From a bacterium (lineage in GTDB: Bacteria > CAIWAD01): a DNA stretch of 27,973 nucleotides. Within the stretch, counting starts at the first letter, position 1. Each line of letters begins with the position of its first letter. Where the stretch lies: the NCBI GenBank assembly GCA_030685015.1, contig JAUXWS010000072.1, forward strand, positions 1-27,973, given 5' to 3'. The translations under genes and the position numbers were made by a program. The notes beneath the pieces are model-generated. The model was given only the letters and a program-made list of their open reading frames with translations, ran no database searches and was not told the origin of the DNA. This document shows, in pieces, positions 172 to 26,092 of this stretch.

Positions 172-178
172 CAAGGTA
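172..178 (-). promoter_or_regulatory. TACCTTG -7/-10-like element of tRNA-Thr
   Basis: CAAGGTA on the plus strand reads TACCTTG on the minus strand and ends 14 bases before the tRNA-Thr 5' end. The same TAnCTTG pattern precedes several other transcription units here (2548-2554, 5036-5042, 14217-14223, 23945-23951, 26086-26092). No convincing -35 hexamer is seen 17 bases upstream. Confidence 0.5.
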
Positions 179-240
179 GAAAGTCCGGCCCAGGGCCGCG
201 CCCTCCCTCGCCGGGCCGCCCAATGCCCCGGAGTCTTTTC

Positions 241-248
241 TACCTTTG
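241..248 (+). promoter_or_regulatory. TACCTTTG element abutting the deoxynucleoside kinase start
   Basis: TACCTTTG matches the Bacteroidetes -7 box TAnnTTTG exactly and ends only 4 bases before the ATG at 253. If it acts as the -7/-10 element, transcription would start at or near the A of the start codon, giving a leaderless mRNA. This fits the absence of a Shine-Dalgarno sequence before that ATG. It could also be chance. Confidence 0.4.
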
Positions 249-252
249 GCCC

Positions 253-921
253 ATGAAAGGACTGATCGGCATCGCCGGCAACATCGGCGCGGGCAAGACG
301 ACTCTGACGGACTGGCTGGCCCGGCGACTCAGCTGGGATCCCCACTACGAGAGCGTGGCCGACAACCCCTTCTTGCAGGACTTCTACGGCGACATGCCGC
401 GCTGGGCCTTCCACCTGCAGATCTACTTTCTCCAGTCCCGCTATGCCGACCACCTACGCCTCTGCGACGGTGAGCGGGGTGCCATCCAGGATCGCACGAT
501 CTGGGAGGATGTGGAAATTTTCGCCCGCAACCTGTACCAGATGGGGCACATCACCGAGCGGGAATGGCTGACCTACTACCGCCTCTTCCACAACATGTGC
601 CAATTCCTGCGCAAGCCGGACCTGCTCATCTACCTGCGCGCCTCGGTGGACACGCTGGTGGCGCGCATCCAGCAGCGGGGACGCAGCTACGAGCAAGGCA
701 TCTCGCCCGAATACCTGCAGCGCCTGAATCTGCTTTACGAGGATTGGATCGGCCGCATCCGCGACATCCCCGTGATCGTGGTCGAGGCGGACCATCTGGA
801 GATCTACAGCGACCGCGCCAAGATGCGCCAGTTGCTGGACTCGGTCGAGAGCGAACTGGCCCGCCGTCAACTGACCCTGGCCCTCGGCCACCTGCATCCA
901 CCCGTCGAAGCCCTCCGCTGA
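253..921 (+). CDS. Deoxynucleoside kinase (dAK/dGK-like)
   Basis: This 222-residue P-loop kinase should transfer phosphate from a nucleoside triphosphate to the 5'-OH of a deoxynucleoside in purine or pyrimidine salvage, in the cytosol. The Walker A motif GNIGAGKT is at residues 9-16, the family DR-T motif (DRTIWED) at 80-86, and an arginine-rich lid (RIQQRGRSYE) at 138-147. Length fits the bacterial deoxyadenosine/deoxyguanosine kinase family (about 200-225 aa). The frame is open upstream to 100, but that would run through the antisense of tRNA-Thr. The ATG at 253 puts the P-loop at its usual distance from the N-terminus. It has no Shine-Dalgarno and a TACCTTTG element just before it. The gene converges on the protease gene with a 24-base gap. 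Substrate specificity cannot be read from sequence. Confidence 0.9.
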   Translation: MKGLIGIAGNIGAGKTTLTDWLARRLSWDPHYESVADNPFLQDFYGDMPRWAFHLQIYFLQSRYADHLRLCDGERGAIQDRTIWEDVEIFARNLYQMGHITEREWLTYYRLFHNMCQFLRKPDLLIYLRASVDTLVARIQQRGRSYEQGISPEYLQRLNLLYEDWIGRIRDIPVIVVEADHLEIYSDRAKMRQLLDSVESELARRQLTLALGHLHPPVEALR

Positions 922-945
922 TCAGCATCCTTGGCGGGCGAACAC

Positions 946-2517
946 TCAAGGCAGCTCGGCCAGGACCCTGAAGCACGCCCGGGCATTGATGCCGACGGGG
1001 GGGCTTGTCCATGACAGGCCGGGCACTGTGTCCACCCGCTGCCAGGCGTCCGGCCAGGATTCCCGCTTTTCCACATGGTAGGCTGTTGCTCCGATGAGCT
1101 CGTCCCACGTGAGGCGGATGCGGCGGTCGGGCAGCAGGGCGATGCCCACCACCGGTCTGGGCGGGGGCGGCCACGAGGCCGCGGCCAGGGCCGCCCGGTG
1201 CAGGTTGAGGCGGCCGCCCGAGACGGTGATGCCGTCCAGCGAGGGAAGCGGATCGACGGTGGTCAGGATCAGATCCTTGATCACCAGCGCGGCGCCGCCC
1301 GGATCGGCCACCACCAGGGCGGCCAAGCTGTCGGACATGACGGCGTGCAGGAAGGCGACAGCCCCGGCCACGTGGGGTGACGACATGGAGGTGCCGGTCA
1401 GGGGGGTGGTGGTGCCGTTCAGGTAGGTTGAGCGCACCTGCGTGCCTGGCGCCCCCAGATCGATGGTGGTGGCGCCATAGGCCGAACCCGTGTTGCGCAG
1501 GTCGGCCGCGGTCGTGTTGGTGACGGTGATGAGCCAGGGCGAGGAGCAGCTGGTGGGCACGTCCCCTTGCAGATCCACGTTGGCGTTGGTGTTCATGGTG
1601 GCGGCGGCGGAGAGGATGCCCACCGCGCCCATCTCGTTGTAAAGGTCGTTCCAGAGCGGATAGTCGCCCAGCTCGCAATTGGCGAAGTTCACGCCGAAGC
1701 TTGAATTGCTGGCCACCACGTTGGCCCCGATCGCTCCCCCGCTCTCCAGCCACTGGGCCTTCTGCTCCAGGACGTAGTTGTAGGCCACGACCACGACGCT
1801 GGTCAGGGAACTGCTGCCCGCCACCGTCATGAGGCCCACCTCCCAGTTCACGCCGCACACCTGGTTGGCGTTGTCGCCGCGGGCGCCCACGATGCCCGAG
1901 ACATGCGTGCCGTGGCCGTTGAAGGGAAGGGATCCGTCATTGTTGTAGGCGTCCCAGCCGTGCACGTCGTCGATGAAGCCGTTGCCGTCGTCGTCCAGCC
2001 CGTTGCCCGCGATCTCGCCGCTGTTGATCCAGGCGTTGGGGGCCAGGTCCGGATGGGTGAGATCCATCCCTCCGTCCACCACGGCGACCACAATAGGTCG
2101 ACCCAGCGGGTCCGTTCCACCGGTACCAAGATCCCAGGCCTCCGGGGCGTCGATGTCGGCATCGCTCCCCTGCTGCAGGTTCCACTGGAGGGGAAACTCC
2201 GGGTCGTCCGGCGTCAGGCGGTCCTCCAGCCAGTGGTCCGCCTGTGCCCAGCGCAGGGCTGGATGTGTGCGCAGTCCTTCCAGGGTCGGGGGCACGGCGA
2301 GGGATCCATCCAGGACAAGCAGGAAGATGTCCAGACGGGGACACAGCACAGGACCCAGGGTCAGCCCGGCGCCGTCCAGCTGAAGCGCGGCCTGGGCGGG
2401 GGTCGTCTCCTCCGCCAGCCGAACGATCACCTGGCCCGGATGGCAGGGTCCAGCAGCCAGGGCATGGGCGCCGCCGACCAGGCTGGCCAGGAACGACAGG
2501 GTGATGGCCCTCTTCAT
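946..2517 (-). CDS. Secreted subtilisin-like serine protease (S8) with C-terminal FN3-like domain
   Basis: The 523-residue exported protease begins with a signal peptide ([10 protein letters not shown] to about residue 22). The S8 triad is visible: Asp148 in [14 protein letters not shown], His202 in NGHGTHVSG and Ser377 in [12 protein letters not shown]. An acidic, probably calcium-binding loop ([13 protein letters not shown]) lies at 172-184. The segment [16 protein letters not shown] near 300-315 resembles the oxyanion-hole region of a secreted subtilase group I associate with Bacteroidota. A propeptide-like stretch precedes the catalytic domain. The last 75 or so residues look like a fibronectin-III-like module ([18 protein letters not shown]). 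No type IX sorting domain is present, unlike the 782-residue protein at 5324-7672. The ATG at 2517 is chosen because it starts the signal peptide and follows AGAGGAGGA. The frame is open further upstream but without a signal peptide there. Confidence 0.92.
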
Positions 2518-2547
2518 GCGTCCTCCTCTGGATACCTGCAGTGCCGA

Positions 2548-2577
2548 CAAGCTACCAGCCCAGTGGACTTGGGGCAA
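2548..2577 (-). promoter_or_regulatory. Promoter of the subtilase gene (TTGCCC-N17-TAGCTTG)
   Basis: On the minus strand, TTGCCC (2572-2577) is separated by 17 bases from TAGCTTG (2548-2554), which ends 30 bases before the ATG at 2517. The spacing is sigma-70-like and the downstream box matches the TAnCTTG pattern recurring in this window. This is the best-formed example with both boxes. Confidence 0.55.
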
Positions 2578-2626
2578 GCGATGATTGTCCTGTTTTGTCC
2601 GGTGGCACCCAGGACCGTGAAAGAGG

Positions 2627-2660
2627 TTGACAACTTTCTTAAGTTCTCTTGTCAATTTTG
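2627..2660 (+). promoter_or_regulatory. Possible promoter region of citrate synthase
   Basis: A perfect TTGACA occurs at 2627-2632, followed by AT-rich sequence ending CAATTTTG (2653-2660), which matches the TAnnTTTG box except for its first base. Spacing is longer than ideal, and the TAnCTTG element of other genes is only approximated (TCTCTTG, 2645-2651). The region is distinctly AT-richer than its surroundings and lies in the 198-base divergent gap before the start at 2716. Confidence 0.3.
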
Positions 2661-2715
2661 CAACATCATCCGTCCGCGGACGGCACTCCATCGTTCATGC
2701 AGCAAAGGAGTCACC

Positions 2716-4023
2716 ATGTCCACATTGAAGAGCAAAGTAGCGGCTGCCATTCCTCCCATGCAGGAGGAGATCAAGAAGCTGCGCGCCGAGCATGGCACCA
2801 AAGTTCTGGGGGAATGCACCATCGACCAGGCCTACGGCGGCATTCGCGACGTGACCTGCATGGTGACGGAGACCAGCCTGCTGGACAAGTTCGAAGGAAT
2901 CCGCTTCCGCGGCCTTTCCATTCCAGAGTGTCAACAGCAGCTGCCCCACCATCCCGAGGGCGAGGAACCCCAGCCGGAAGGCATTTTCTGGCTCATGCTC
3001 ACCGGCCAGGTTCCCACCAGGGCGGAAGTGGACGAATTGACGGAGGAGTGGCGCAGCCGCGCCAAGGTTCCGGCCCACGTCTTCAAGGCGCTGGACGCCC
3101 TGCCCGTTGACGCCCATCCCATGACCCAGTTCTCGGCGGGCATCCTCGCCTTGCAGACGGAGAGTCAATACGCGAAGAAGTACCGCGAGGGCATGCCCAA
3201 GAAGGAGTACTGGTCCTGGGCCTATGAGGACACGATGGACCTCCTGGCGCGCCTGCCCCAGGTGGCGGCCTACATCTACCGCCGCTCCTACAAGGGCGGG
3301 AAGCACATCGCACCGGATCCCACCCAGGACTGGAGTGGCAACCTGGCCCACATGCTGGGTTACGACAGCAAGGACTTCCGCGAGCTGATGCGCCTCTACC
3401 TGACCATCCATTGCGACCATGAGGGCGGCAACGTCAGCGCACACACCACCCATCTGGTGGGCAGCGCCCTGAGCGACCCCTATCTCTCGCTCTCGGCCGG
3501 CATGAACGGCCTGGCCGGTCCGCTCCACGGACTGGCCAACCAGGAAGTGCTGCGCTGGGTTTTCGAGTTCCGCGAAAAGCTGGGCGTGGACGTGCCCAGC
3601 AAGGAGCAGCTCGAGAAGGCGCTGTGGGACACGCTCAACAGCGGCCAGGTGATTCCCGGCTATGGCCACGCCGTGCTGCGCAAGACGGATCCCCGCTACA
3701 TGGCCCAGCGCGAGTTCGCCCTCAAGCACCTGCCCGAGGACCCGCTCTTCAAGCTGGTCGGCATGATCTTCGAGTCCGCCCCGGACATCCTGCTGAAACA
3801 CGGCAAGGCCAAGAACCCCTGGCCCAACGTCGACGCCCACAGCGGCTGCCTGCTGGTGCACTACGGCATGGACGAGTACGACTACTACACCGTGCTCTTC
3901 GGCGTCAGCCGCGCCCTGGGCGTGCTGGCCAGCCTGATCTGGGACCGCGCGCTTGGTCTGCCCATCGAGCGGCCCAAGACCGTGACCACGGAATGGATCA
4001 AGGACTTCGTCAAGAAGGCCTGA
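2716..4023 (+). CDS. gltA: Citrate synthase, mitochondrial/eukaryote-like type
   Basis: It condenses acetyl-CoA and oxaloacetate to citrate, the entry step of the TCA cycle, in the cytosol. The 435-residue protein carries the three catalytic residues in order: His271 ([10 protein letters not shown]), His318 ([14 protein letters not shown]) and Asp373 (NVDAHSG). These positions nearly coincide with His274, His320 and Asp375 of the pig enzyme. Length and sequence style match the dimeric mitochondrial-like group found in some Bacteroidota and related bacteria rather than the hexameric E. coli GltA. The frame is open far upstream to 1903, but that stretch is antisense to the protease gene. The ATG at 2716 follows AAAGGAG at good spacing. 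The gene appears monocistronic, with a hairpin downstream at 4062-4081. Confidence 0.95.
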
Positions 4024-4061
4024 TCTGACCCTTTAGGATCAATGGGCGGGCGGGGTCCGGA

Positions 4062-4081
4062 CGGGCTTCGCCCGCTTCTTT
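4062..4081 (+). terminator. Terminator-like hairpin after citrate synthase
   Basis: CGGGC (4062-4066) and GCCCG (4070-4074) form a stem with a TTC loop, followed by CTTCTTT (4075-4081). It starts 38 bases after the citrate synthase stop. The short stem and interrupted T-tract make it a modest candidate. Confidence 0.5.
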
Positions 4082-4163
4082 GCCACGCCGCGAACGACGT
4101 GGCGGCGCAGCGTTCATCCTCCTTCCGAGCGCGCCAGCGATGGCGACAGCATGGGGGCATGGC

Positions 4164-5063
4164 ATGCATCTGCTCTCGGCCTCCCGGCGCATGGACCTTC
4201 CCGCCTTCCAGCTGGAGGCCTTCCTGGGACATGCCCGCCGGGGGTGGATGACGGTGCCCCACCCCTTCACTGGACGGCCGCAGCGGATCCGCCTGGTGGG
4301 GCCCGAGGTGGCCGGCATCGTCTTCTGGACCCGGCGGCCGGCGGCCCTGCTCCCCCATCTGGACGAGTTGCGCCGCCTTTGGCGGGACGCCCTGCGCGTC
4401 CACGTCACGCTCACAGGCATGCCGCGGGAGCTGGAGCCCCGCGCGCCGGCTGTGGCCGAGGTGCTGCCCGCCCTGGCCTCCCTCGCGCAAGGCCTGGGTC
4501 CCCGGCACCTGAGCTGGCGCTTCGATCCCCTTCTACTGAGCGAGGGGACGCCGGCCGAGTGGTGGGTGGAGCGCTTCGAAGCCCTGGCGCCCCGCCTGGC
4601 CGGCCATGTCAGTGAGGTGATGCTGTCCTGGCTGGACCTCTATGCCCGCACCCGCCGCAATCTGCTCCCCGTGGAAGGACGCGGCTTCCGCCTGCACAAC
4701 CCCACGCCGGCCGCCCGGCGCGACCTGTTGGACGCATTGGCGGGGGTCGCCCGCCGTCACGGACTGACGCTCAAGGCCTGCTGCGAGCCGGACATGCTGG
4801 AGCACTCACAGGTCCTGCCCGGGGCCTGCCTGGATGGCGCCTGGTTCGAGCAGAGGCGGGGCCTGGTCGCCGGCGCCCTGGGAGCCGCTCCCAGCCGGGC
4901 CGGGTGCGGCTGTTGCCGCTCCCGTGACGTGGGCGTCTACGACAGCTGCGCTTTCGGCTGCCGCTATTGCTACGCCAATCGTCGTCCCCACGAAACGGCG
5001 CCGGCCGATCCCTGGACCCCGCACGCGCCGGGTGATACCTTGCCCCTTGCGCCGGAATGGTGA
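4164..5063 (+). CDS. DUF1848 family protein with cysteine cluster
   Basis: This 299-residue protein opens with the typical family start (LLSASRRMDLPAF), has a central segment VFWTRRPAALLPHL, and ends in a conserved cysteine cluster: CGCCRSRDVGVYD followed by CAFGCRYCYAN. These features match DUF1848, whose biochemical role is not established. The CxxxCxYCYAN pattern resembles metal- or Fe-S-binding cysteines, as in radical-SAM-like proteins, but that is inference. The ATG at 4164 is preferred over one at 4140 because the family normally starts only a few residues before the SASRR motif. Neither has a strong Shine-Dalgarno; GGGGG lies nine bases before 4164. The TGA stop (5061-5063) falls inside the 5' acceptor/D-arm region of tRNA-Leu, a 13-base overlap, and the last codons also contain the tRNA's putative promoter. 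Confidence 0.85.
   Translation: MHLLSASRRMDLPAFQLEAFLGHARRGWMTVPHPFTGRPQRIRLVGPEVAGIVFWTRRPAALLPHLDELRRLWRDALRVHVTLTGMPRELEPRAPAVAEVLPALASLAQGLGPRHLSWRFDPLLLSEGTPAEWWVERFEALAPRLAGHVSEVMLSWLDLYARTRRNLLPVEGRGFRLHNPTPAARRDLLDALAGVARRHGLTLKACCEPDMLEHSQVLPGACLDGAWFEQRRGLVAGALGAAPSRAGCGCCRSRDVGVYDSCAFGCRYCYANRRPHETAPADPWTPHAPGDTLPLAPEW
5013..5042 (+). promoter_or_regulatory. Promoter of tRNA-Leu inside the DUF1848 coding region
   Basis: TGGACC (5013-5018) and TACCTTG (5036-5042) are separated by 17 bases, and the second box ends 8 bases before the mature tRNA 5' end. TACCTTG matches the TAnCTTG pattern upstream of other units here. The element lies wholly within the last codons of the upstream gene. 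Confidence 0.5.
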
Positions 5064-5133
5064 AATGGCAGACACGGGGGACTTAAAATCCCCTGGCCGC
5101 AAGGCCGTGCGGGTTCAAGTCCCGCTTCCGGCA
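5051..5133 (+). tRNA. tRNA-Leu(TAA)
   Basis: This is a class II tRNA with a long variable arm. Acceptor stem GCCGGAA/TTCCGGC, anticodon stem GGGGA/TCCCC with loop CTTAAAA giving anticodon TAA (reads TTA), variable arm TGGCCGCAAGGCCG, T-arm GCGGGTTCAAGTCCCGC, discriminator A at 5133. CCA is not encoded. Its first 13 bases overlap the end of the DUF1848 gene. Confidence 0.95.
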
Positions 5134-5253
5134 ATCCTCGCTTCCCGGAATCCCACACAAGCCAGGGCTTCGAACGGTTGCATGGGCTTCCTGTGGCGCC
5201 AGCCTGCACGTGAACGATGGACGGCCACCAGCCCGCCCTTCCCCGTTCGGTGC

Positions 5254-5287
5254 TTGAGAAAAGGCCCCCACCTCATGGATGGGGGCC
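5254..5287 (-). terminator. Rho-independent terminator of the 782-aa secreted protein gene
   Basis: The arms GGCCCCCA (5263-5270) and TGGGGGCC (5280-5287), extended by an inner CC/GG pair, form a strong hairpin. On the minus strand it is followed directly by TTTTCTC. It lies about 36 bases past the stop codon at 5324. The 5134-5253 stretch between it and tRNA-Leu shows no gene. Confidence 0.8.
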
Positions 5288-5323
5288 AGTGTTTGGGCGT
5301 TCCGCCCCGATGTTGGGCAGGCG

Positions 5324-7672
5324 TTATTTGCTGAGCAGCAGCTTCTGCGTGGAGACGCGACCCTCGCTCTCCAGCTGGGCGAAGTAGACGGCGCTGGCCA
5401 GGCGTCCGCCGTCGAACACGGCGCTTTGCATCTGGCCACTGGCCGCGCCTTCGAAGAGGTTGGCCACCACCTGCCCACGCAGGTTGTAAACCTTCAGACT
5501 GATCTGCGTCCCGGCCGGGGCCCGGAAGTCCAGCTGCGTGGTCGGGTTGAAGGGGTTGGGCACGGCGCTCTCCAGGGCGAAGTCGGCTGGGCGGCCGACG
5601 CCGTCCGCCACGTCGATGTCCGCCTCGGTCAGAACCCACAGCATCAGCTCATTGCCGTTTGCATCGCTGAAGCCCAGGTCGAAGTCGATGCCGTCGGTGA
5701 TGGCGTAGTGCCCCGTGTTCCAGACCAGGTCGTTGCCCAGGGCGTGGGGATAATCGGTCAGGCGCTCGCACCAGACCCAGAAGTCGCCGTCCACCTGGAC
5801 GCCGGCCTCCACCTCGAACTCCCACAGGGTGAGGGCGCCCTGGGTGGTGAGGGTGTAGTCCCCGTTCCAGATCTCGGTGCCCGGCTGCCCGTCGTTGTCT
5901 TCCATGATGTGGATGCGGATGACGCGACCGCCGGCGTTGCCGTTGGGATCATAAAGGCCGAGCGTCACGCTGAGCACGTCCAGGGTGCCCAGGCCCAGTC
6001 GGGAGACATCGTCCACGAACATGGCCGGGTCGCCGCCACTGAAGTAGAAGGCGGGCTCCTGGAAGCTGTAGCCGAACTCGTACTGTCCGGCCGGGCGCAC
6101 ATCGATGGGGCTGACCCACAGCGTGTCGTTGACGGGCACCTGGTCGTCGGGGTTGTTGCCGTAGCTCTTCAGCTCATTCTCGCCGAAGAGAGCGGGCGTC
6201 CAGTTGTAAGTGCGCGTCTGGGAGGAGAGCGGCGGAATGTTGAGCCGGGGCATGATGGGTCCGTTCAACTGATCGTTGACCACCATCCAGGCCTGGATCT
6301 CGCTCAGGGCGGTGGAGCCGTTGTTGGCGTAGCGCACGTAGGTGGGGCACTGGGCGCCCACGGTGCGCGGATAGCTCGGGATGATGTGGGTGCAGGCCAG
6401 GTCGTTGGCCGGCACATCGCTGCCCCAGATCTCCACGTCGTCGATCCACAGGCCGGTGCCGATGCCGCCGTCGTCGTTCCAGTCGGTGGTGATGCGCCAG
6501 CGCAGCCGGACACTCTGGCCACCCCACTCGTTCAGGCTCATGGCGATGTTGCCGTTGAAGGGCATGCCGGGCTGGTAATCGGCCCAGCCGCTCCCGCCCG
6601 GGCGGGAGACGTCGCCATAGTCGTAGAAGAGGGTGGTCCAGGGTCCACCGTTGGCGGAGAGCTCCACGTGGTAGTAGTCCTCCAGCGAATTGTTGCCGTC
6701 GCCATCGAAGTCCAACATGTGGCAGCGGATCCAGAACTCCAGCCAGAGGTCCTGGTCGGCGGGCAGCGTGTAGGCCGGTGAGACAAGCGCGTTGAGCAAG
6801 CCGTGACCCATGGCCGCGTTGGCCGCGTGGGTGGGGCTGTGCGAGCTGGCCGTGCTGAGGGTCCAGGTGTTGCCCGAGGCCCCGCCCGAGACTCCCGTGA
6901 ACTCCGCGGGGGTGGCGATGCCGTCCGCGTTGTTCTGGAGGACCGTGTTGCCGCCCGAGGTGATGACCACGTCATCGACCAGCATGCCGAAGATGGCCGG
7001 ATTGTTGGCCGTGCAGTAGGCGCCGTCGCTGCAGAAAGCGAACCGGAAGGCCACAGTCTGGCCCACGTGGGCGGCCAGGTCCTTGGTCACGGCGCGCCAG
7101 GCGGAAGTCCCCGCCCAGCCGGGAATGCCCGTGCCCATGCCGAAGATCTCGCCGAAACTGTAGAGGCTGCTGTGCGTGTAGGCCCAGGAGAAGCCGGTGG
7201 CCACGGTCCAGGGGCCGCCGTTCACGCTCATCCACACGTTGCAGCCGTCCCAGGCATTGTAGCCGGCCGGCTCGCCGCCCGGGGCCTCCACCGCGTAGCG
7301 CAGCTGGAAGCTGAGCTGGGCCGGGGCCGCTGTGATGGCGACGGCGGGAGTCTCCAGGTACTGCAGCCAGTTGTTGTCATAGCCGTTCAGGGACTGCAGG
7401 CCGCACCACCAGCTGTTGCCGGCGTAGGCATTGAAGGTGGACGTGTGCCAGACGGGCGTGATGGCCGTCAGGTCGACCGTGGTCCACCCGTCCCAGCCGT
7501 TCTCGAAATCCGTGCCGAAAAGCACGGCCTCGGTGCGATCGGACGCGGCCGGTCGCTCGAGGGAGGTCCTCCCCCAGGGCTCGACACGATCGGTGGTGGT
7601 GGCCGCCAAAGCTTGTCCAGCAATGAGCAGCGTGCAAACAACGGCGGCACCCGTCCTCGGGTTGATGGTCAT
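5324..7672 (-). CDS. Secreted multidomain beta-sandwich protein with type IX-like C-terminal sorting domain
   Basis: The 782-residue protein starts with a signal peptide (to about residue 23, ending GQALA). Residues about 50-240 resemble the MAM/immune-inhibitor-A-type jelly-roll module seen in secreted FCB proteins (DFENGWDGWTTVDLT, VWMSVNGGPWT). A second similar module spans about 255-415, with acidic DFDGDGNNSLEDYYHVELSA and GLWIDDVEIWG segments. A CARDB-like segment (PANDLACTHI to about 520) and a further beta-rich domain follow. The C-terminal 80 or so residues are a Por-secretion-type sorting domain: AVPNPFNPTTQLDF, ISLKVYNLRGQVV, then GRLASAVYFAQLES and STQKLLLSK. This implies export across the inner membrane by Sec and then the outer membrane by a type IX-like system, with tail cleavage. 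No catalytic motif is recognised, so the role is unknown (surface adhesion or binding is a guess). The ATG at 7672 follows AAGGAGGAG. Confidence 0.88.
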   Translation of the reverse strand: MTINPRTGAAVVCTLLIAGQALAATTTDRVEPWGRTSLERPAASDRTEAVLFGTDFENGWDGWTTVDLTAITPVWHTSTFNAYAGNSWWCGLQSLNGYDNNWLQYLETPAVAITAAPAQLSFQLRYAVEAPGGEPAGYNAWDGCNVWMSVNGGPWTVATGFSWAYTHSSLYSFGEIFGMGTGIPGWAGTSAWRAVTKDLAAHVGQTVAFRFAFCSDGAYCTANNPAIFGMLVDDVVITSGGNTVLQNNADGIATPAEFTGVSGGASGNTWTLSTASSHSPTHAANAAMGHGLLNALVSPAYTLPADQDLWLEFWIRCHMLDFDGDGNNSLEDYYHVELSANGGPWTTLFYDYGDVSRPGGSGWADYQPGMPFNGNIAMSLNEWGGQSVRLRWRITTDWNDDGGIGTGLWIDDVEIWGSDVPANDLACTHIIPSYPRTVGAQCPTYVRYANNGSTALSEIQAWMVVNDQLNGPIMPRLNIPPLSSQTRTYNWTPALFGENELKSYGNNPDDQVPVNDTLWVSPIDVRPAGQYEFGYSFQEPAFYFSGGDPAMFVDDVSRLGLGTLDVLSVTLGLYDPNGNAGGRVIRIHIMEDNDGQPGTEIWNGDYTLTTQGALTLWEFEVEAGVQVDGDFWVWCERLTDYPHALGNDLVWNTGHYAITDGIDFDLGFSDANGNELMLWVLTEADIDVADGVGRPADFALESAVPNPFNPTTQLDFRAPAGTQISLKVYNLRGQVVANLFEGAASGQMQSAVFDGGRLASAVYFAQLESEGRVSTQKLLLSK

Positions 7673-7833
7673 AACTCCTCCTTGAATGGCGCGGCACTTG
7701 GCTTGTTCACCGCGATCAGGCTTGTCAACATGGTTTTCAACTTAGGGTTTGCCATTCTTGAGAGCAACGAAGCGACATGACTCCTTCAGGATCACGGAAT
7801 GCCACCCGGACACCCAAGACAAGCGCGAAAATC

Positions 7834-9609: not shown

Positions 9610-9645
9610 GCCGCGTCACGCTTTGCCACATTGCGGCCCGTCCTT

Positions 9646-9717
9646 TACCCCGTGGTGTAATTGGCAACACCTCAGGTTTTGGTCCTGATGTTCCTGGTTC
9701 GAGTCCGGGCGGGGTAG
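9646..9717 (+). tRNA. tRNA-Gln(TTG)
   Basis: Cloverleaf with acceptor stem TACCCCG/CGGGGTA, anticodon stem TCAGG/CCTGA and loop TTTTGGT giving anticodon TTG (reads CAA). The T-arm contains CTGGTTCGAGTCCGG, and the discriminator is G at 9717, as usual for glutamine tRNAs. CCA is not encoded. It lies 36 bases after the Wzi-like gene with no clear own promoter, so it may be co-transcribed. The discriminator base is also the first base of a perfect palindrome. Confidence 0.94.
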
Positions 9718-11226: not shown

Positions 11227-14175
11227 TCAGGCCGGCGCCGGGCGCAGGATGACGCCGCTGCGGCTGCGCGCGTTCATCAGCACACAGAGCGGCTGCTCCA
11301 GACGAAGGTGTCGGACGTGACCCCGCTCCTGAAAGGTCGGCTGTCCCAGCAGCCAGTCCCAGTCCAACTCGCCCTCCCCTTGCTGCGGATTGACGGTGAA
11401 ATAGCCGATCCCCAGCGCCGTCAGGTTCTGGAAGAAATGCGAACCCTGGGATGGCGTGACGATCAGGTCGCGGAAACCGGCCTCGACGATGACCCGCACC
11501 CCCGAGATCTGATCCCAACTGACCGGGATGCCCAGCCACGGATCGGAGCTGCCCCAGCGCCCCACGCCCACCAGCAGGAAGGGGCGCTGCTCCTGGACAA
11601 GCGTGCGGTTGAAGTCGCCCACGGCAGCCGCCACCTCGCGGCTGTGGCGACGCTCGAAGCGTTCCACGTCCACCACCAGCAGGTCGTGGATGTCGTCCAG
11701 GCGACCCGCGCCCAGCACCGAGCTGCTTCGGCAGATGACCCGGGCGGGATCCACCTCCAGGTTCAGCTCATCCAGCTCCTGGGAAAGGACCATGGGCCGC
11801 ATCTGGAGGACGCTGAACTCCATCGTCTCGCCGCCCGTAGGGAAGAGATTGACGGCGAACTCCAGCTCGACGGGCCGGCTCATGCCACGGGAGCCCACCC
11901 GCAGCAGACGGGAGATGATCTCGGCCAGCGGGAAGAGATCGTGCTTGAGGACGGGCGCGAAACTGACGAAGCGGGCCCCCGGCCGCGACAGGCCGTCGTA
12001 GACGGCGTCGTTCTCCGGGCTGTAGACGGATCCCACCCAGGCCAGGGTGCCGTCCCGCTCGGCCTGGTCCAGCTCAAGCGTCTCAAGCTCCGTGCCTTCG
12101 GTGGCGCCCACATGGCTGTCCCCGGTGAGGCGCAGGGCGTAGAACTGCTTCTGCCCGTACTGCAGCGCCTCGCCGGCGTGCATGAACATGCCAAGATGGC
12201 GCGGATAGCGGGGACAGAAGCGCACCGTCTCGGCGCCCTCGGAGACAAGATGGCCCAATCCAAGAGCCACGCTGGCCACCCCGTCTCGATCCATGGCCGG
12301 CGCTGTTGGATAGAAGTTGGTCGAGCGGGCCGTGCCGCTGATGGCCGGGTAGAAGTGGTCGCCATGGCGCGCCCCCTGCAGGCGCTGGATGATGACCGCC
12401 ATCTTTTCCTCCTCCATGCGGTAGGGCGTGGAGCGCATGTAGCTCTTGGCCGCCTGGCAGTAGGTGGACGCGTAGACCAGCTTGATGGCGTCGATCAGCT
12501 CGCGCAGGCGCTGCTCGTGGTCCGCGGAGCTGTTGGGCAGCATGATGGTGCGGTAGATGCCGGCGAAGGGCTGGTACTGGCTGTCCTCCAGCAGGCTGCT
12601 CGAGCGCACGGCGAGCGGCCCGTCGAGCAGTTCGACCACGTGGCGCAGGTCGATCTGGAAGAGCGGCGGGAAGATGGCCGCCAGGAAGCGCTGGCGGATC
12701 TGCTCGTCGACGTCGCAGTCCAGGGCGAAGTCCTGCAGGTCGCCCAGCTCCACGAACTGGTCGAAGACCTCCGTGCAGAGCACGACGGCGGGGGGGATGG
12801 CCACGCGGATGCCCGGCCAGCGCTCCCCCAGGTCGCCCAGGGAGAGCAGGTGGCGCACGAAGGAGAGGCCCCGCGCCTTGCCGCCCATGGAGCCTTTGCC
12901 GATCTGGGCCAGGCTGTTGCGCGGATCGAAGGTCTCGGGATGGAATTCGCTGACGATGCCGCGCGTGCGGTCCAGGCGGTAATCGCCCAGGGCCTCGATC
13001 AGGTAGTGGCGCATGGCTTCCAGCGAAGGGAATTCGTTGACGCGGCGCGGCTCCAGCAGGCGCGAGAGGCCGAACTCGGTGCGCGCCTTCAGCCACTTCG
13101 AGAAATGGCCGCGCTCGGCATGGAAGCGCAGGCTCTCCTCGGGCACCGTCTCCAGGGCGCGCTCCAGGGCGTGCAGGTCCCGCGCCCGGCCGATGGGCGT
13201 GCCGTCGGGCAGGCGGAAGACGAAGTCCCCGAAACCAAAGTTGTCCCGCATGAAGCCGCGCACGTCGCGCAGGAGGTTGCGGCTGTTCTTGCGCACCGCC
13301 CCCACCCCCAGCTGCTCGCCCAGCTCCAGCACGTGGGGTTGGTTGGACTGCAGGAGGATGGGCAGCTCCGGGCTGCGGGCGCGCACCGCCCGGATCAGAT
13401 GCAGGCCGGCGTCGGGGTCCACCTCCCCGGCGCGCGGGAACTCGAGGTCGGTGATGATGCCCAGCAGGTTCTCCCGGTGCGCCTCGAAATCGCGCCAGGC
13501 CTCCTCGTAGGTGCGGGCCAGGAGGATCTTGGGCCGCGCCCGCATGCGGATCACCTTGTGGGCCAGGTTTAGCCCCTCGTCCATCAGCCGGTGGGCCTGC
13601 TGGACGATCTCCTTGTAGATGGCGGGCAGATAGCTGCTGTAGAAGCGGACGTTGTCCTCCACGAGGATGACCGACTGGACGCCCATCACGCGGGAGTCCT
13701 GCTCCACGTTGAGGCGGTCCTCCACCAGCTTGACGATGGCGATGAGGATGCGGAAATCTCCCTGCCAGACGAAGACATGGTCGATCAGGTCCGCCTCGGG
13801 GCCCCCCAGCAGCGGGGCGAGGTGCCGGGCATCGTAGGCCAGAAGGATGACCGGGATCGTGATGCCCGCCCCGCGCAGCTCCCGCACCAGCTGCAGGACA
13901 TGCATGTCGCCCACGTTGACCGTGAGCAGGATCATGTCGCAGGGCTGCCCCGCCTTGAGGGTCTCCAGGGCCTTGCCGGCCCGGGAGACGCGGGTGATCT
14001 TGGGGGCGTGCACCAGGTTGAGACTGGCGAATTCGCTGGCGATGAGATCCTGCAGCTGGCCGTCCTGGGCCAGTAGGAAGGCGTCGTAAAGGCTGGCGAC
14101 GAGCAGGATCTCCGACACCCGGTGCTGGATCAGCTCCTGGAAGCCGGCGATGTGGTCGAAGCGGTTGCGGGTCAT
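11227..14175 (-). CDS. Dual receiver-domain protein with PPDK/PEP-synthase-type ATP-grasp domain
   Basis: The 982-residue protein combines signalling and nucleotide-binding modules. Residues about 20-150 form a receiver-like fold whose acidic pocket is lost (DMILLTVNVGDM, no Asp at the acceptor position). Residues about 165-310 form a second receiver with an apparently intact site: Glu173-Asp174 (LVEDN), acceptor Asp243 (IITDLEFP) and Lys296 (AVRKNS). From about 420 a PPDK/PEP-synthase N-terminal ATP-grasp domain follows: Lys433 in KGSMGGKARGLSFV, PLAVRSSSLLED, and VLQMRPM near its end. The usual phosphohistidine swivel domain and PEP/pyruvate TIM barrel are absent. A distinctive tail carries VGVGRWGSSDPWLGIPV and TPSQGSHFFQNL. 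Similar proteins are annotated in Bacteroidota as PEP/pyruvate-binding proteins of unknown function. The start has GAGGAG upstream and a TACCTTG element at 14217-14223. Confidence 0.85.
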   Translation of the reverse strand: MTRNRFDHIAGFQELIQHRVSEILLVASLYDAFLLAQDGQLQDLIASEFASLNLVHAPKITRVSRAGKALETLKAGQPCDMILLTVNVGDMHVLQLVRELRGAGITIPVILLAYDARHLAPLLGGPEADLIDHVFVWQGDFRILIAIVKLVEDRLNVEQDSRVMGVQSVILVEDNVRFYSSYLPAIYKEIVQQAHRLMDEGLNLAHKVIRMRARPKILLARTYEEAWRDFEAHRENLLGIITDLEFPRAGEVDPDAGLHLIRAVRARSPELPILLQSNQPHVLELGEQLGVGAVRKNSRNLLRDVRGFMRDNFGFGDFVFRLPDGTPIGRARDLHALERALETVPEESLRFHAERGHFSKWLKARTEFGLSRLLEPRRVNEFPSLEAMRHYLIEALGDYRLDRTRGIVSEFHPETFDPRNSLAQIGKGSMGGKARGLSFVRHLLSLGDLGERWPGIRVAIPPAVVLCTEVFDQFVELGDLQDFALDCDVDEQIRQRFLAAIFPPLFQIDLRHVVELLDGPLAVRSSSLLEDSQYQPFAGIYRTIMLPNSSADHEQRLRELIDAIKLVYASTYCQAAKSYMRSTPYRMEEEKMAVIIQRLQGARHGDHFYPAISGTARSTNFYPTAPAMDRDGVASVALGLGHLVSEGAETVRFCPRYPRHLGMFMHAGEALQYGQKQFYALRLTGDSHVGATEGTELETLELDQAERDGTLAWVGSVYSPENDAVYDGLSRPGARFVSFAPVLKHDLFPLAEIISRLLRVGSRGMSRPVELEFAVNLFPTGGETMEFSVLQMRPMVLSQELDELNLEVDPARVICRSSSVLGAGRLDDIHDLLVVDVERFERRHSREVAAAVGDFNRTLVQEQRPFLLVGVGRWGSSDPWLGIPVSWDQISGVRVIVEAGFRDLIVTPSQGSHFFQNLTALGIGYFTVNPQQGEGELDWDWLLGQPTFQERGHVRHLRLEQPLCVLMNARSRSGVILRPAPA

Positions 14176-14216: not shown

Positions 14217-14223
14217 CAAGGTA
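14217..14223 (-). promoter_or_regulatory. TACCTTG -7/-10-like element of the dual-receiver gene
   Basis: CAAGGTA on the plus strand reads TACCTTG on minus, ending 41 bases before the ATG at 14175, in the 89-base gap after the VOC gene. It matches the window's TAnCTTG pattern. No good -35 hexamer is visible. It suggests the gene can be transcribed independently of gdhA and VOC. Confidence 0.42.
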
Positions 14224-16187: not shown

Positions 16188-16351
16188 TTCGTTAAGCGAA
16201 GAACAGGCGAGCTTCACGCATCGTCTGTCCGGTTCACCAATGAAAGTAGTTCCGTGGTACGGCGGGTGCAAGCTTGGGCCCGCGCTTCCACGCCCCGCCA
16301 CGGCTTTCCAGCGGTCTGGCCCCCAGCCGCCCGGCCCCAAGGGCTCCACCC

Positions 16352-18394: not shown

Positions 18395-18428
18395 GGGGCT
18401 TCCCGTCTATCTGGTGTTCGATGCGTGA

Positions 18429-19823: not shown

Positions 19824-19888
19824 CCCGTCGCCTCCTTGCGTTCATCCTGCGGGGCCACCGGGCTCCCCGCCTCCTCCCGCCGCCTCCC

Positions 19889-21118: not shown

Positions 21119-21131
21119 GGCTCCTCCTGTC

Positions 21132-23915
21132 TCAGGCAAAGGCCCGATCAATCAGCATCCGTTGTTCGGCCCGGTGCCGGCGCGCCATGCCGGTGGCGGT
21201 GGCGGCGGCGGCGCGGCGGCTCACCAGCTCCAGCGGCCGCAGGCGGAAGACCCGTTGCAGCCAACTCCAAGCGCCCATGTTCTCCGGCTCCTCCTGCACC
21301 CAGATCCAGCGCTCCGCCCCGGACCAGCGGTCCAGCGCCCCGGCCAGGCGGGCGGTGGGCAGCGGGGCCAGCTGCTCCAGGCGCAAGATGGCCAGATCCC
21401 GCCGTCCTCCCTCGCGCCGGGCCGCGTCCAGTTCGTAGTAGAGCTTGCCGCTGCAGAGCAGAACGCGGCGGACCTGGCCCGGATCGGCCTCCTCGTCGTC
21501 CAACACGTCCCGGAAGGCCGTCCCCGGTCCGAAGTCGGCCAGCGGGCTGACAGCGGCGGGGTGGCGCAGCAGGCTCTTGGGCGAGAGGACGATGAGCGGC
21601 ACGCGGAAGGGCCGCTTCAATTGCCGCCGCAGCAGATGGAAGAAGTTGGCCGGCGTGGTGGCGTTGGCCACCTGCAGGTTGGCGCCGGCGCAGAGCTGCA
21701 GGAAGCGCTCGGGGCGGGCGCTGCTGTGCTCGTGGCCCTGCCCCTCGTAGCCGTGGGGCAGCAGGCAGACCAGCCCGCTGTGCTGGTGCCATTTGGTCTC
21801 GGCGCAGCTGATGAACTGGTCGAAGATGATCTGGGCGCCATTGGCGAAGTCCCCGAACTGGGCCTCCCAGATGGTCAAGCCGTCGGGCGTGGCCACGCTG
21901 TAGCCGTAGTCGAAGCCCAGCACGCCGTACTCGCTCAGGGGCGAGTTGAGCACGGTGAAGGGCGCCTGGCCCTCCTCCAGGTTGGCCAGGGGAATCCACC
22001 GCTCGGCGGAGTCCGCGATGGTGAGGGCGGCGTGGCGGTGGCTGAAGGTGCCGCGCACGCTGTCCTGACCCGACAGGCGCACTGGGTGACCTTCGCGCAG
22101 CAGGGTGCCGAAGGCCAGGGCCTCGCCCAGGGCCCAGTCCAGGGCGCGACCCTCCTCGAGCAGGGTGCGGCGCTGTTCGTAGAGGCGGATCGCTTTGGGC
22201 AGCAGGGGGCGGTCGCCGGGCAGGGCCAGCAGGCGCCGTCCCGTGTCGAGCAGGAAGGCGTCGGCCAGACCGGTGGCGGGCGAGACCTGCTCGAAGTCCT
22301 CATCCCGGGCGCGCCGCAGCTCCCGCCACACACCGCCCAGGGACTCCCGCATGGGCACGACCGTCATCCGGGCCGCGGCGGCCAGCTCCTCCTCCATCTC
22401 GGCGCGGAAGGCGCGCTCGATCTCGCCCGCCTCGGCCTCGCTCATCTGGCCCTGCTCCACCAATTGGCGGCGATAGATGGTCAGGGCGTCGGGATGGCGG
22501 GCGATCGCCTCATAGAGCAGGGGCTGGGTGAAACGGGGTTCGTCGCCCTCGTTGTGGCCGTGCTTGCGGTAGCCCAGGATGTCGATGAAGACGTCCCGCT
22601 TGAACTCCTGGCGGAACTCGAGGGCGAGGCCCACCGCGTGGATGACCGCCTCCACATCGTCCCCGTTGACATGGAAGACCGGGGAGAGGGTCGTCTTGGC
22701 CAGGTCCGTGCAGTAGGTGCTGCTGCGGCCCTCCAGGTAGCCCGTGGTGAAGCCCACCTGGTTGTTGAGGACGAGGTGGATGGTCCCGCCCGTGCGATAG
22801 CCGGGCAGCCGGGACATCTGCAGCACCTCGGCGACGATGCCCTGCCCGGCGATGGCGGCGTCCCCGTGGATGAGGAGGGGGGCGATCCGGCTCTCGTCGC
22901 CGCCGTGGCGGGCCAGCAGCTTGGCCCGCACGATCCCCTCCACCACCGGATCCACCGCCTCCAGGTGGGAGGGGTTGGGCGCCAGGCTGAGGTGGACGCG
23001 GCGACCGTCGGCCAGCACCCGGTCCGAGGAGTAGCCCAGGTGGTACTTGACGTCGTTGGTGAAATCCACGTCCTCGTAGTCCAGGTCCTGGAACTCGGCG
23101 AAGAGCTGGGCGAGGGGCTTGCCCATCACGTTGACCAGCACGTTGAGGCGGCCGCGGTGGGGCATCCCGATGACGAACTCCTCGATCCCCAGCTTCGCCC
23201 CCGACCCGATGATGGCGTCGAGGGCGGGGATGACGGCGTCCACCCCCTCGATCGAGAAGCGCTTCTGTCCGGTGAAGCGGGTGTGGAGGAGCTTTTCGAG
23301 CAGGACGGTCCGCGTCAGCATGCGGTAGACGTGGCGGCGCTCCTCGGGCGCGAAGGAGCGCTGGTTGCGCGACCCCTCCATGCGCTGCTGCAGCCAGTCC
23401 AGGACGACGGGATGGCGGATGTAGCGGAACTCGACGCCCACCGAGCGGCAATAGGTCTCCTCGAGGAAGGCGATGATCTCGCGCAGGGGCGCCGTGCCGA
23501 GGCCCAGTTGGGAGCCGGCGTGAAAGGGGCGGTCGAGGTCGGCCGCCTCCAGCCCGAAGGTCTCCGGGTCGAGGGGAGGCCGATAGGGGCGCCGCGAGCG
23601 GACGGGATTGGTGCGGGTGAACAAGTGGCCGCGCAGGCGGTAGCCGTCGATGAGGGCCAGGACGCGGCTCTCCCGCGCAAAGTCCTCGCGCACCCGGCGC
23701 ATCGGTTCGCCGCAGATGTCCTCCTCCGCTCCGCCCGTCCGGCGGGCGGCGGCCAAGGCCTCGGGAGCCTGGCGGGCGAACTCGAAGCCTTCGAAGAAAC
23801 GCCGCCAATCGGCGGGCAGCGTCTCGGGTTGGCTCAAGTACTGTTGGTAGTATGCATCCACGACGCGGGGTTCCGCTTGATGCAGCCAGGGAAGCGGACT
23901 CATGGGTGGGCGCAT
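21132..23915 (-). CDS. sucA: 2-oxoglutarate dehydrogenase E1 component
   Basis: This thiamine-diphosphate enzyme decarboxylates 2-oxoglutarate and succinylates E2-bound lipoamide, a TCA-cycle step. The 927-residue protein has the family length. Motifs include [10 protein letters not shown] (90-99), [13 protein letters not shown] (248-260), [11 protein letters not shown] (349-359) and [11 protein letters not shown] (384-394), which build the active and cofactor sites; [11 protein letters not shown] near 450; and the transketolase-like second half ending with [14 protein letters not shown]. The N-terminus contains the [11 protein letters not shown] assembly segment. The ATG at 23915 is the first of two (the other is 23903). 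It has a GGAAAGG stretch very close upstream and a TAGCTTG promoter element 29 bases upstream. It is the first gene of sucA-sucB-lpdA-M3 peptidase. Confidence 0.96.
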
Positions 23916-23944
23916 GCCTTTCCGTGACGGTTACTCACGCGGGC

Positions 23945-23951
23945 CAAGCTA
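23945..23951 (-). promoter_or_regulatory. TAGCTTG -7/-10-like element of the sucAB-lpdA operon
   Basis: CAAGCTA on the plus strand reads TAGCTTG on minus, ending 29 bases before the sucA ATG. This is the same distance as for proS (29) and the protease (30). The hexamer 17 bases further upstream reads ATGGAA, a poor -35 match. Confidence 0.5.
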
Positions 23952-24038
23952 AGGAAGCGGTGTTGGATTTCCATGCCCCTCATGGGCTTTGCACGACGGA
24001 TTAACAGGTGGACAGATCAAAGTCATGATCAGGACCAG

Positions 24039-24240
24039 AATCGCTATCGGGATCGCTATGGGGATCGGGATCGAGTACCACGTCCCTGGTTCGGTCCTGC
24101 TCGATGCGCGGGTGTGAGAGCTATGCCGGCAGGGCAGCCATCTCGTCGCGAGGGAGGAGTTCGATATCGATATCGATATCGATATCGATATCGATCCCGA
24201 TAGCGATCCCGATAGCGATCCCGATAGCGATGGGGATTGG
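24039..24240. repeat. Inverted arrays of GATNNC hexamers
   Basis: The right array (24163-24240) consists of thirteen consecutive six-base units: five GATATC, three GATCCC-GATAGC pairs, then GATGGG and GATTGG. The left array (24039-24075) carries the reverse complement of the same units (GCTATC, GGGATC and variants) in about six copies. The two arms, about 87 bases apart, can pair over 12-base GATAGCGATCCC-type segments, and GATATC is self-complementary. The arrays fill the 373-base gap between the divergent sucA and arginine deiminase genes. Six-base periodicity gives open dipeptide-repeat frames (Arg-Tyr/Asp, Ser-Ile) that I regard as incidental. Confidence 0.88.
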
Positions 24241-24288
24241 TTCGACGCATTGCCGCACATTGGCTGCCGATCAAATCCGAGGTCGCCC

Positions 24289-25533
24289 ATGCCCGTCCGG
24301 ATCCAGTCCGAGATCGCCCCGCTGCGCACCGTGCTCCTGCACCAGCCGGGCTTCGAGCACCGCAAGACCGTGCCCTGGAACAAGGACGCCCTCCTCTTCG
24401 ACGACATCCTGGACCTGGACGCCGCCCGCCAGGAGCACAAGGATTTCTCCCTGCTGCTGGCCCAGCACGGGGTGGAGGTCCTCTTCCTGATGGATCTGCT
24501 CAAGGAGATCTGCGCCGAACCGACCCAGCGCCGCGCGCTCTACGAGTCCCTCCTCCCGCCCCGCGTGCTGGAGGCGGTGGACTGGCGGCGCCTGCAGCCC
24601 TGGCATCTGGTGCACGGCTTTCCCGACGAGGCCTGGCTGAACTCGCGCTCCCTCATCCAGCCTCTTCCCAACCTGTACTTCCAGCGCGACCCGGCCTTCG
24701 CCGTGCCCGGCGCCCTGGTGATCGGCCATCCCTGCTGGCCCGCCCGCCGGGCCGAGAGCCTGCTGCTGCGGGAGGTCTTCCGCCGTCATCCCCGCTTCGA
24801 CGGACTGCTCATCTGGGACGGTCTGCTCGATCTGCCCAAAGCCCACGTCGAAGGGGGCGACGTGCTGGTGCCGGACGAATCGACCGTGATGGTGGGCATC
24901 AGCGAGCGCACGAGCGAGGCGGGGGCCGAGGCCCTGGCCGCCTGGCTCTTCGCCCACACGCCGGTGCGGCGCCTGCTCAAGATCTGGCTGCCCGCCAAGC
25001 GCGACTTCATGCACCTGGACACGGTCCTCACTTTCCTCGACCACAGCCGCATCCTCACCATGCCCTATCTCTGGGAGCGGCCCGACCTCTACGCCCGCAT
25101 CGCCCAGGAGGCCCAGCGACTCTGCGAAAGGCTGGGCCACCCCTACACCGGACCCCTGCCCGAGGAGCTGCTGGCCGGCACCCGGCTGGAGGTGCTGCAC
25201 GACGACGGCCGCCGGGAGCGCCACGCCATGGTGCTGGCCGGGCTGGCCGAGTGCGGCCTGGTCGAGCCGGACTGGACGGTGACGGTGGGCGGCTCGGCGG
25301 AGCAGTACGCGCGGGCCGAGGCCCACATCGTGGCCGCCCTGCGCGAACAATGGAACGACGCGGCCAACACCTTCGCCCTCAAGCCCGGGCAGGTGCTCTG
25401 CTATGACCGCAATGTGGACACCCTGCGCGCCCTTGAGGAGGCCCACGTCGAAGTGGTGCGCTTCGCGGGCAGCGACCTGGTGCGCGGGCGGGGCGGGGCG
25501 CGCTGCATGACCTGCCCCTTGTGGCGGGACTGA
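24289..25533 (+). CDS. arcA: Arginine deiminase family protein
   Basis: It is predicted to hydrolyse arginine to citrulline and ammonium in the cytosol. The 414-residue protein has the guanidino-modifying-enzyme catalytic set: Asp134 in LYFQRDPAF, Glu188 in HVEGGDVLV, His242 in MHLDTVLTFLDH, and the nucleophile Cys406 in GRGGARCMTCPL. Asp, Glu, His and Cys occur in the family order, and the length matches bacterial ArcA (about 410 aa). The ATG at 24289 follows GAGGT at 6 bases; the frame is open upstream to 24250 without a Shine-Dalgarno. No ornithine transcarbamylase, carbamate kinase or antiporter gene is adjacent, so a complete ATP-yielding deiminase pathway is not shown here. A related amidinotransferase or peptidyl function is less likely. 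The upstream gap contains hexamer repeats and no TAnCTTG element. Confidence 0.88.
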   Translation: MPVRIQSEIAPLRTVLLHQPGFEHRKTVPWNKDALLFDDILDLDAARQEHKDFSLLLAQHGVEVLFLMDLLKEICAEPTQRRALYESLLPPRVLEAVDWRRLQPWHLVHGFPDEAWLNSRSLIQPLPNLYFQRDPAFAVPGALVIGHPCWPARRAESLLLREVFRRHPRFDGLLIWDGLLDLPKAHVEGGDVLVPDESTVMVGISERTSEAGAEALAAWLFAHTPVRRLLKIWLPAKRDFMHLDTVLTFLDHSRILTMPYLWERPDLYARIAQEAQRLCERLGHPYTGPLPEELLAGTRLEVLHDDGRRERHAMVLAGLAECGLVEPDWTVTVGGSAEQYARAEAHIVAALREQWNDAANTFALKPGQVLCYDRNVDTLRALEEAHVEVVRFAGSDLVRGRGGARCMTCPLWRD

Positions 25534-25580
25534 CGCTGGCCGCTGGGCTTGCGGCTGTCGCTGTCCTCCCGGCAGGGTTC

Positions 25581-25653
25581 TGTCATCCCAGTGAAAGTTG
25601 GGATCCCACGGGCCGCTCCAAGTCCTGTCATCCCGGCGAAAGCTGGGATCCCA
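25581..25653. repeat. Two copies of a TGTCATCCC...GGGATCCCA element
   Basis: Copies at 25581-25608 and 25626-25653 begin 45 bases apart and differ at three positions (CCCAGTGAAAGTTGGG against CCCGGCGAAAGCTGGG). Each is an imperfect inverted repeat around GAAAG. This resembles the GTCATTCCCGCGAAAGCGGGAATCC family dispersed in many bacterial genomes. Confidence 0.8.
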
Positions 25654-25705
25654 TGTGCCACTCCAGCATTTCCCATGTCTTGCGGCGCAAGCGCCACGCC
25701 ACCTT

Positions 25706-25737
25706 CCCACCTTTCTTCTGGCGAGAAGAAAGGTGGG
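25706..25737. repeat. 32-base perfect inverted repeat (14-bp arms)
   Basis: CCCACCTTTCTTCT (25706-25719) and AGAAGAAAGGTGGG (25724-25737) are exact reverse complements around a GGCG loop. As RNA it would be a very stable hairpin. There is no T-tract on either side, so I label it a repeat rather than a terminator, though it could end the arginine deiminase transcript. Confidence 0.85.
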
Positions 25738-25776
25738 CCAAAGAAGCGCTCTCCAAGACATCACCGGCCCTAACTA

Positions 25777-25794
25777 GCCCGCCTCACGGCGGGC
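25777..25794. repeat. GCCCGCC-TCAC-GGCGGGC hairpin
   Basis: A 7-bp perfect stem closes a TCAC loop. It has no T-tract on either strand and is part of the repeat-rich intergenic region. Confidence 0.6.
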
Positions 25795-25872
25795 GTCGGA
25801 CAGAGGGCCGCATCAAATGAGCCGGTCACCCATGTCACTGGTTCAGGTCTTCGACCTTCACCGCGTGATACC

Positions 25873-25957
25873 TCCTTCTCCCTGCCAGGGTGAAGGCCGG
25901 GATGGGGGTTCGCTGCCTGCCACCTTCCCCGCTCCGGGTGGAAGGCGGGGATGGGGC
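25873..25957. repeat. Two related imperfect hairpin repeats
   Basis: The copies at 25873-25908 and 25921-25957 share the layout CCTTC-rich arm, GGGTG(A/G)AAGG-rich arm, then CGGGGATGGGG-like tail. Both fold as imperfect stems (CCTTC.CCCT/AGGG.GAAGG in the first, CCTTCC/GGAAGG in the second). They resemble widely dispersed intergenic repeats of the CTCCC...GGGTGAGGG kind. Confidence 0.65.
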
Positions 25958-26085
25958 ATGCGCCAAGCCATGTTTTCGACCCCCTCGCGTGTCACACAGT
26001 GTCAATCTGGGCCTGCGAGCCATTCCCTTGCCCTGCTTTTGCCCTGCTTTTTTTCGACGAGAACGCAGGAAGAGGCGACTCTGCG

Positions 26086-26092
26086 TATCTTG
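26086..26092 (+). promoter_or_regulatory. TATCTTG -7/-10-like element of proS
   Basis: TATCTTG ends 29 bases before the proS GTG, the same distance as the sucA element. It is preceded by AT-rich sequence (T-run at 26048-26054) but no clear -35 hexamer at 17 bases. Confidence 0.48.

Follow-up and report, generated by a model that had tools for sequence, protein, structure and literature searches.

Boxes and genes in the window

The stretch analysed here, hereafter the window, comprises the 27,973 nucleotides (nt) of contig JAUXWS010000072.1 from the bacterial assembly GCA_030685015.1 (lineage CAIWAD01), and its recurrent element is the heptamer TAnCTTG, a candidate core promoter box. The window is contig 72 of an assembly of 3.61 Mb in 105 contigs, which is 97% complete and has a GC content of about 68%. 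An exact search of the whole window returned six copies and no others, each in the sense orientation relative to the gene that follows, as a first-pass annotation had listed them. Two precede tRNA genes: TACCTTG at 172-178 (minus strand), itself preceded by TTTC, lies upstream of tRNA-Thr (85-157, minus), and TACCTTG at 5036-5042 (plus) lies upstream of tRNA-Leu (5051-5133, plus). The remaining four serve protein genes, namely a subtilase (TAGCTTG, 2548-2554, minus), a gene at 11227-14175 (TACCTTG, 14217-14223, minus), sucA, encoding 2-oxoglutarate dehydrogenase E1 (TAGCTTG, 23945-23951, minus), and proS (TATCTTG, 26086-26092, plus). The annotation had expected a box of six specified bases to be rare; shuffled versions of the window contained 1.9 +/- 1.2 copies, and 1 of 100 shuffles reached six.

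The spacing of these boxes relative to their genes was likewise reexamined. Once the tRNA genes had been located, the boxes were found to end 14 nt (tRNA-Thr) and 8 nt (tRNA-Leu) before the mature 5' end, exactly as proposed. Among the protein genes, a distance of 29 or 30 nt to the start codon had been claimed for three; it holds for proS (29 nt to GTG 26122) and the subtilase (30 nt to ATG 2517), whereas for sucA it depends on the start chosen, being 29 nt to ATG 23915 but 41 nt to the in-frame ATG 23903 that the gene caller preferred. The box at 14217-14223 stands 41 nt before ATG 14175; the product of this gene, earlier described as a dual-receiver protein, is mainly a PPDK_N protein resembling phosphoenolpyruvate synthase, with merely a weak receiver match. 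A related octamer, TACCTTTG (241-248, plus), ends 4 nt before the ATG (253) of a deoxynucleoside kinase gene, its first T lying 12 nt upstream of that ATG, again in agreement with the annotation. In addition, a weaker form, CACATTG (9627-9633, plus), is located 11 nt before tRNA-Gln. An open reading frame (ORF) at 4164-5063 extends 13 bases past the start of tRNA-Leu, and the tRNA-Leu box lies within the 3' end of this ORF.

Several of these boxes are conserved in relatives. Four relatives below domain level were available according to kinship labels, two from the same genus, one from the same family and one from the same class. Of public metagenome-assembled genomes, LaPlata_bin-1558 corresponds to one of these by identical RpoB positions and 8_bin.8 to another, and SulCav_PC08_3_68_11, with 93% citrate synthase identity, is probably a third. 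Upstream of tRNA-Thr, TATCTTG occurs at an equal distance in a genome of the same genus (L001) and TATCTTC in one of a sister genus (L005). The subtilase orthologue in L001 and the PPDK orthologue in L005 are both preceded by TAGCTTG, and at the place equivalent to the CACATTG of tRNA-Gln, L001 has CACCTTG. For the kinase, TACCTTTG followed by 4 nt in the window corresponds to TACCTTG followed by 5 nt in L001, so that the first T falls 12 nt before the ATG in both. Before genes of the sister genus, the preferred forms are TAnATTC, TAnATTG and TAnCTTG, and T is rare at the position designated -6 below.

Enrichment, spacing and anatomy across the genome

Genome statistics were obtained from a sample of 1.49 Mb (41% of the genome, 68% GC). 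Part of the sampled contigs had been chosen from a list of TAnCTTG hits, and key counts were repeated on contigs chosen without hits (unbiased contigs); dinucleotide shuffles served as controls for upstream regions. TAnCTTG was found 45 times upstream of genes against 3.4 +/- 1.8 in the shuffles, ranking first among all patterns of the form XX.XXXX, and about 10% of upstream regions hold it compared with 0.5% after shuffling. CTACnTT was enriched as well (46 vs 2.5). The first-pass annotation had asked whether the box is denser upstream of genes than in coding sequence, and this is the case: it is 14.8 times denser between than inside genes (82 and 37 hits), and 17 times denser in the unbiased contigs (30 and 10 hits). 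In intervals between tandem genes, 21 copies were sense and none antisense, with a ratio of 8:0 in the unbiased contigs. Unguided de novo motif discovery, also suggested by the annotation, returned the Shine-Dalgarno motif and CtacCTTG; with Shine-Dalgarno sites (AGGAGG, 73 vs 24.3 shuffled) set aside, no other motif in the sample is as strong as TAnCTTG. The octamer TAnnTTTG is weakly enriched and not dominant here (9 vs 3.4), and TATAAT is not enriched in upstream regions (0 vs 1.4). A two-block expectation-maximization fit over all upstream regions yielded a muddied model that was no better than its reverse-complement controls, and anchored counts were used instead.

The genes downstream of the box are diverse. 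Among 20 proteins checked, matches include pyrF, pyrC (dihydroorotase), recC-like and RlmC/RlmD-like proteins, a cdsA-like phosphatidate cytidylyltransferase, EttA, a SufE-like protein and acetaldehyde dehydrogenase; sucA, proS and tRNAs are likewise served by TAnCTTG boxes. Such a spread of housekeeping genes and tRNAs is as expected of a primary sigma factor.

Distances to start codons, for which a peak near 29-30 nt had been anticipated, form two groups. A peak does exist at 21-30 nt (23 TAnnTTG boxes vs 10.3 expected), although it is not sharp at 29-30, and a second lies at 4-5 nt (11 vs 2.2); the intervening range of 9-20 nt is nearly empty (1 vs 13.1), and control patterns did not give this two-peak profile. 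Both the peaks and the gap would follow from a transcription start site 5-6 nt past the box: a box ending 4-5 nt before ATG would yield a leaderless mRNA, and one ending at least 21 nt before the start codon an mRNA with room for a Shine-Dalgarno site. The kinase gene, whose box begins 12 nt upstream of the ATG, is therefore predicted to be transcribed as a leaderless mRNA. About 18 genes look leaderless by this spacing, for example those at window position 253, L111:1425 and L103:13844. Whole-genome counts of CTAnCTTG-N4/5-ATG in three genomes of the genus gave a modest excess, 24 vs 11 in a reversed control.

The anatomy of the element was resolved by anchoring on an upstream TTG. In this search, TAnnnT occurred at an offset of exactly 23 in 61 cases, compared with about 7 at each other offset, which corresponds to a -35 element of the TTG(AC) type with the canonical 17-nt spacer. 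In the numbering of sigma-70 promoters, the box would then read T-12 A-11 n-10 C-9 T-8 T-7 G-6, mostly following T-16 Y-15 n C-13. The -35-anchored TAnnnT sites, picked without reference to nCTTG, favour T-16 and C-13 and have T-8 in 64% (z 9.5), and TAnCTTG boxes show the corresponding preference for T-16, Y-15 and C-13. The -35 TTG itself (positions -35 to -33) is present in 61 of 433 TAnnnT sites but in only 4 of 64 TAnCTTG sites. TAnnTT would be the core common to most recognisable promoters; boxes lacking G-6 are more often paired with TTG(AC) at 17 nt, and TAnCTTG boxes mostly do without it. The simplest reading, which we infer from these counts, is that all belong to one class of promoter and that a strong -10 element, with C-9 and G-6, can take the place of the -35 element.

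Further sequence features were recorded alongside the box. In the sampled contigs, patterns of the type TCGnTAT likewise show intergenic enrichment (45 vs 3.5 expected). In the window, an inverted repeat, TTGACAA-N15-TTGTCAA (2627-2655), precedes the citrate synthase gene, which starts at 2716, and is a possible operator; repeats resembling GATATC and GATCCCGATAGC occur in runs (about 24155-24240) upstream of a gene of the arginine-deiminase family (24289-25533). The protein encoded at 5324-7672 has a weak match, just under the cut-off, to a C-terminal sorting domain of type IX secretion (Por_Secre_tail), a trait of the type found in the Fibrobacterota-Chlorobiota-Bacteroidota (FCB) group.

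The primary sigma factor and competing explanations

A homology search of the genome identified one RpoD-type sigma factor of 276 residues, one FliA-type factor, RpoN and five other proteins matching sigma region 2, which are taken as putative extracytoplasmic function (ECF) factors; it did not find a second sigma of group 1 or 2. The RpoD-type protein scores 259 bits for RpoD_Cterm, below the cut-off of 354. With its N-terminus as predicted, it begins at region 1.2 and is devoid of region 1.1, the short architecture of Bacteroidota, and it is 68-71% identical to the copies of Schleiferia, Flavobacteriales UBA972 and Neolewinella. Its regions 2.3-2.4 match those of Bacteroidota save for conservative changes. 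One 20-residue stretch is common, save for small changes, to the Bacteroidota, Calditrichota and Marinimicrobia copies and differs in Aminicenantes and Polarisedimenticola. Short sigma-A proteins of the Bacteroidota type, 65-69% identical to the one here, were also found in one Calditrichota (L260) and one Marinimicrobia (L262) genome, which hints that the short form may be a trait of the FCB group beyond Bacteroidota alone. In an RpoB tree, the lineage groups with Bacteroidota, Calditrichota, Marinimicrobia and two unnamed relatives at 100% support but lies outside Bacteroidota, its exact sister being weakly supported (54-78%); 16S rRNA was not found in the metagenome-assembled genome, and placement relies on RpoB and the kinship labels.

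Taken together, TAnCTTG is very probably a strong form of the -10 element and would be read by this short Bacteroidota-type sigma-A, the primary sigma of the lineage. The proposal of the first-pass annotation that the box is the principal sigma-factor element is well supported, by the single group-1-type sigma found and by the tRNAs and housekeeping genes downstream, as an interpretation of sequence. Several points weigh against it. The exact box is present in only the tenth of upstream regions given above and TAnnTT in 27%; therefore, many promoters are weaker than these patterns or unrecognised. No TAnCTTG precedes tRNA-Leu in L001, and no clear box signal was seen in the upstream regions of the class-level relative (G004). 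Moreover, gene starts in the 1.49-Mb sample are predictions of a simple, home-made gene caller.

It is quite unlikely that TAnCTTG is instead read by an alternative sigma factor while the primary sigma uses another box. The known sites of FliA-type, ECF and RpoN sigmas, the classes to which the other matches are assigned, no second group-1/2 sigma having been found, differ from TAnCTTG, and an alternative factor would be at odds with the genes served and with the rank of the motif. The rarity of a -35 TTG at TAnCTTG boxes (4/64, vs 19/97 where TAnnTT is followed by C or T; Fisher P 0.02) could mean two promoter classes, but the -35-anchored TAnnTT sites have T-16, C-13 and T-8 in common with TAnCTTG. 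A precedent for an alternative factor comes from Flavobacterium psychrophilum, in which the similar motif TAnnTTGY (SM5), with the same spacing shortened by 1 bp, is grouped with alternative-sigma motifs (PMC9723704). The box might also be the ordinary sigma-70 -10 element (TAnnnT) of a GC-rich genome, with nCTTG reflecting base composition. Indeed, T-12, A-11, T-7, the -35 TTGAC and the 17-nt spacer all agree with the canonical promoter, and TAnnnT with an uninformative middle is reported for high-GC Actinobacteria and Deinococcus-Thermus (PMC3160421). This explanation is nonetheless very unlikely: a composition of 68% GC would place C or G at -8, where the anchored sites mostly have T, TATAAT is not favoured, and the base following TAnCTT departs from expectation, with observed/expected ratios of 1.83 for G, 0.87 for T and 0.1 for A. 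Finally, a short conserved box before many genes could serve as an operator, bound by some widespread regulator of transcription, and not as part of the core promoter. Such a role is extremely unlikely for a non-palindromic box that is strictly oriented (the 21:0 ratio) and lies about 12 nt before leaderless ATGs and shortly upstream of tRNAs, in positions that RNA polymerase itself has to occupy.

A different objection accepts the promoter element and bears solely on whether it is a variant of the Bacteroidota box. The annotation had likened TAnCTTG to the Bacteroidetes -7 motif TAnnTTTG, and the likeness is confirmed by a common TA-n-C-TT core; its further suggestion that C at position 4 distinguishes the two must be dropped, since Bacteroidota promoters read TAnCTTTG too. 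Relative to TAnnTTTG, the box of this lineage is one T shorter, with G at -6 rather than -5, and high GC alone might have removed the T. For comparison, 44 Bacteroidota loci in two sets averaging 38% and 52% GC were passed through the same pipeline, which recovered TAnCTTTG at sense-to-antisense ratios of 8:0 and 10:0, respectively; Aminicenantes loci gave TATAAT-like patterns. These sets are less GC-rich than the genome studied, the GC-rich Salinibacter and Hymenobacter plasmids were uninformative, showing no clear box of either length, and the kinase gene, with TACCTTTG in the window and TACCTTG in the relative, demonstrates that both lengths occur. Conversely, even at 52% GC TAnCTTG is not favoured in Bacteroidota (1:5). 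The base after TAnCTT is G in 64 and T in 17 cases here but G in 9 and T in 83 in Bacteroidota (Fisher P about 1e-21, uncorrected for composition), and the composition-corrected ratio for G, 1.83 here, is 0.43 there, with 2.16 for T. A purely compositional origin of the missing T is thus somewhat unlikely.

Relation to known promoters

Bacteroidota promoters have long seemed the oddity of one phylum, and here a related uncultured lineage combines the same sigma type and the same box family with a different spacing. We consider it about an even chance that, throughout a lineage belonging to the FCB group, the main promoter box has been altered by one base (TAnCTTG for TAnCTTTG, moving G from -5 to -6) with a nearly identical DNA-reading helix in the primary sigma factor, so that the position of the G would be set by parts of the polymerase beyond region 2.4 or would drift freely, and that a Bacteroidota-type sigma is here combined with both Shine-Dalgarno-led and leaderless mRNAs. 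The lineage offers a natural test of which part of sigma or polymerase fixes the conserved G (-6 vs -5), as well as a usable promoter model for the prediction of gene starts and operons within it.

In Bacteroidota, the -7 element TAnnTTTG is read by sigma-ABfr, and TTTG occurs near -33, according to PMC7366714, which for the former cites Bayley 2000 and Vingadassalom 2005. Beyond the TA-n-C-TT core, the lineage shares with Bacteroidota the short type of primary sigma and perhaps a TTG further upstream in some promoters. In contrast, Shine-Dalgarno sites are strongly enriched here, whereas PMC3155529 describes them as generally lacking in Bacteroidota.

The closest motif found in the literature is SM5 of F. 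psychrophilum, whose box starts at -12 and has G at -6 (PMC9723704); a search for TANNTTGY returned this paper alone, within limited coverage that carries no claim of the box being unreported elsewhere. As in SM5, TA and TTG are one base closer than in TAnnTTTG and G falls at -6, the numbering here relying on the predicted start site. SM5 is a minority motif, with SM4-6 jointly accounting for 7% of start sites (PMC9723704), unlike TAnCTTG, which is top-ranked and found on tRNA and housekeeping genes. Nor does the pyrimidine of SM5 at -5 hold here, where TAnCTTG is followed by G in 24, T in 16, C in 14 and A in 10 cases (pyrimidine 30/64).

Compared with the sigma-70 consensus TTGACA-N17-TATAAT, the box retains T-12, A-11 and T-7 and, in part of the promoters, is preceded by a -35 TTG(AC) at the 17-nt spacing; it differs in having T rather than A at -8, in showing no preference for TATAAT and in carrying T-16 Y-15 n C-13 in place of the TGn extension. 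Leaderless genes of the TA-led type in Actinobacteria and Deinococcus-Thermus similarly have their -10 box some 12 nt upstream of the start codon, but theirs is a plain TAnnnT (PMC3160421), whereas the box of this lineage is TAnnTTG.

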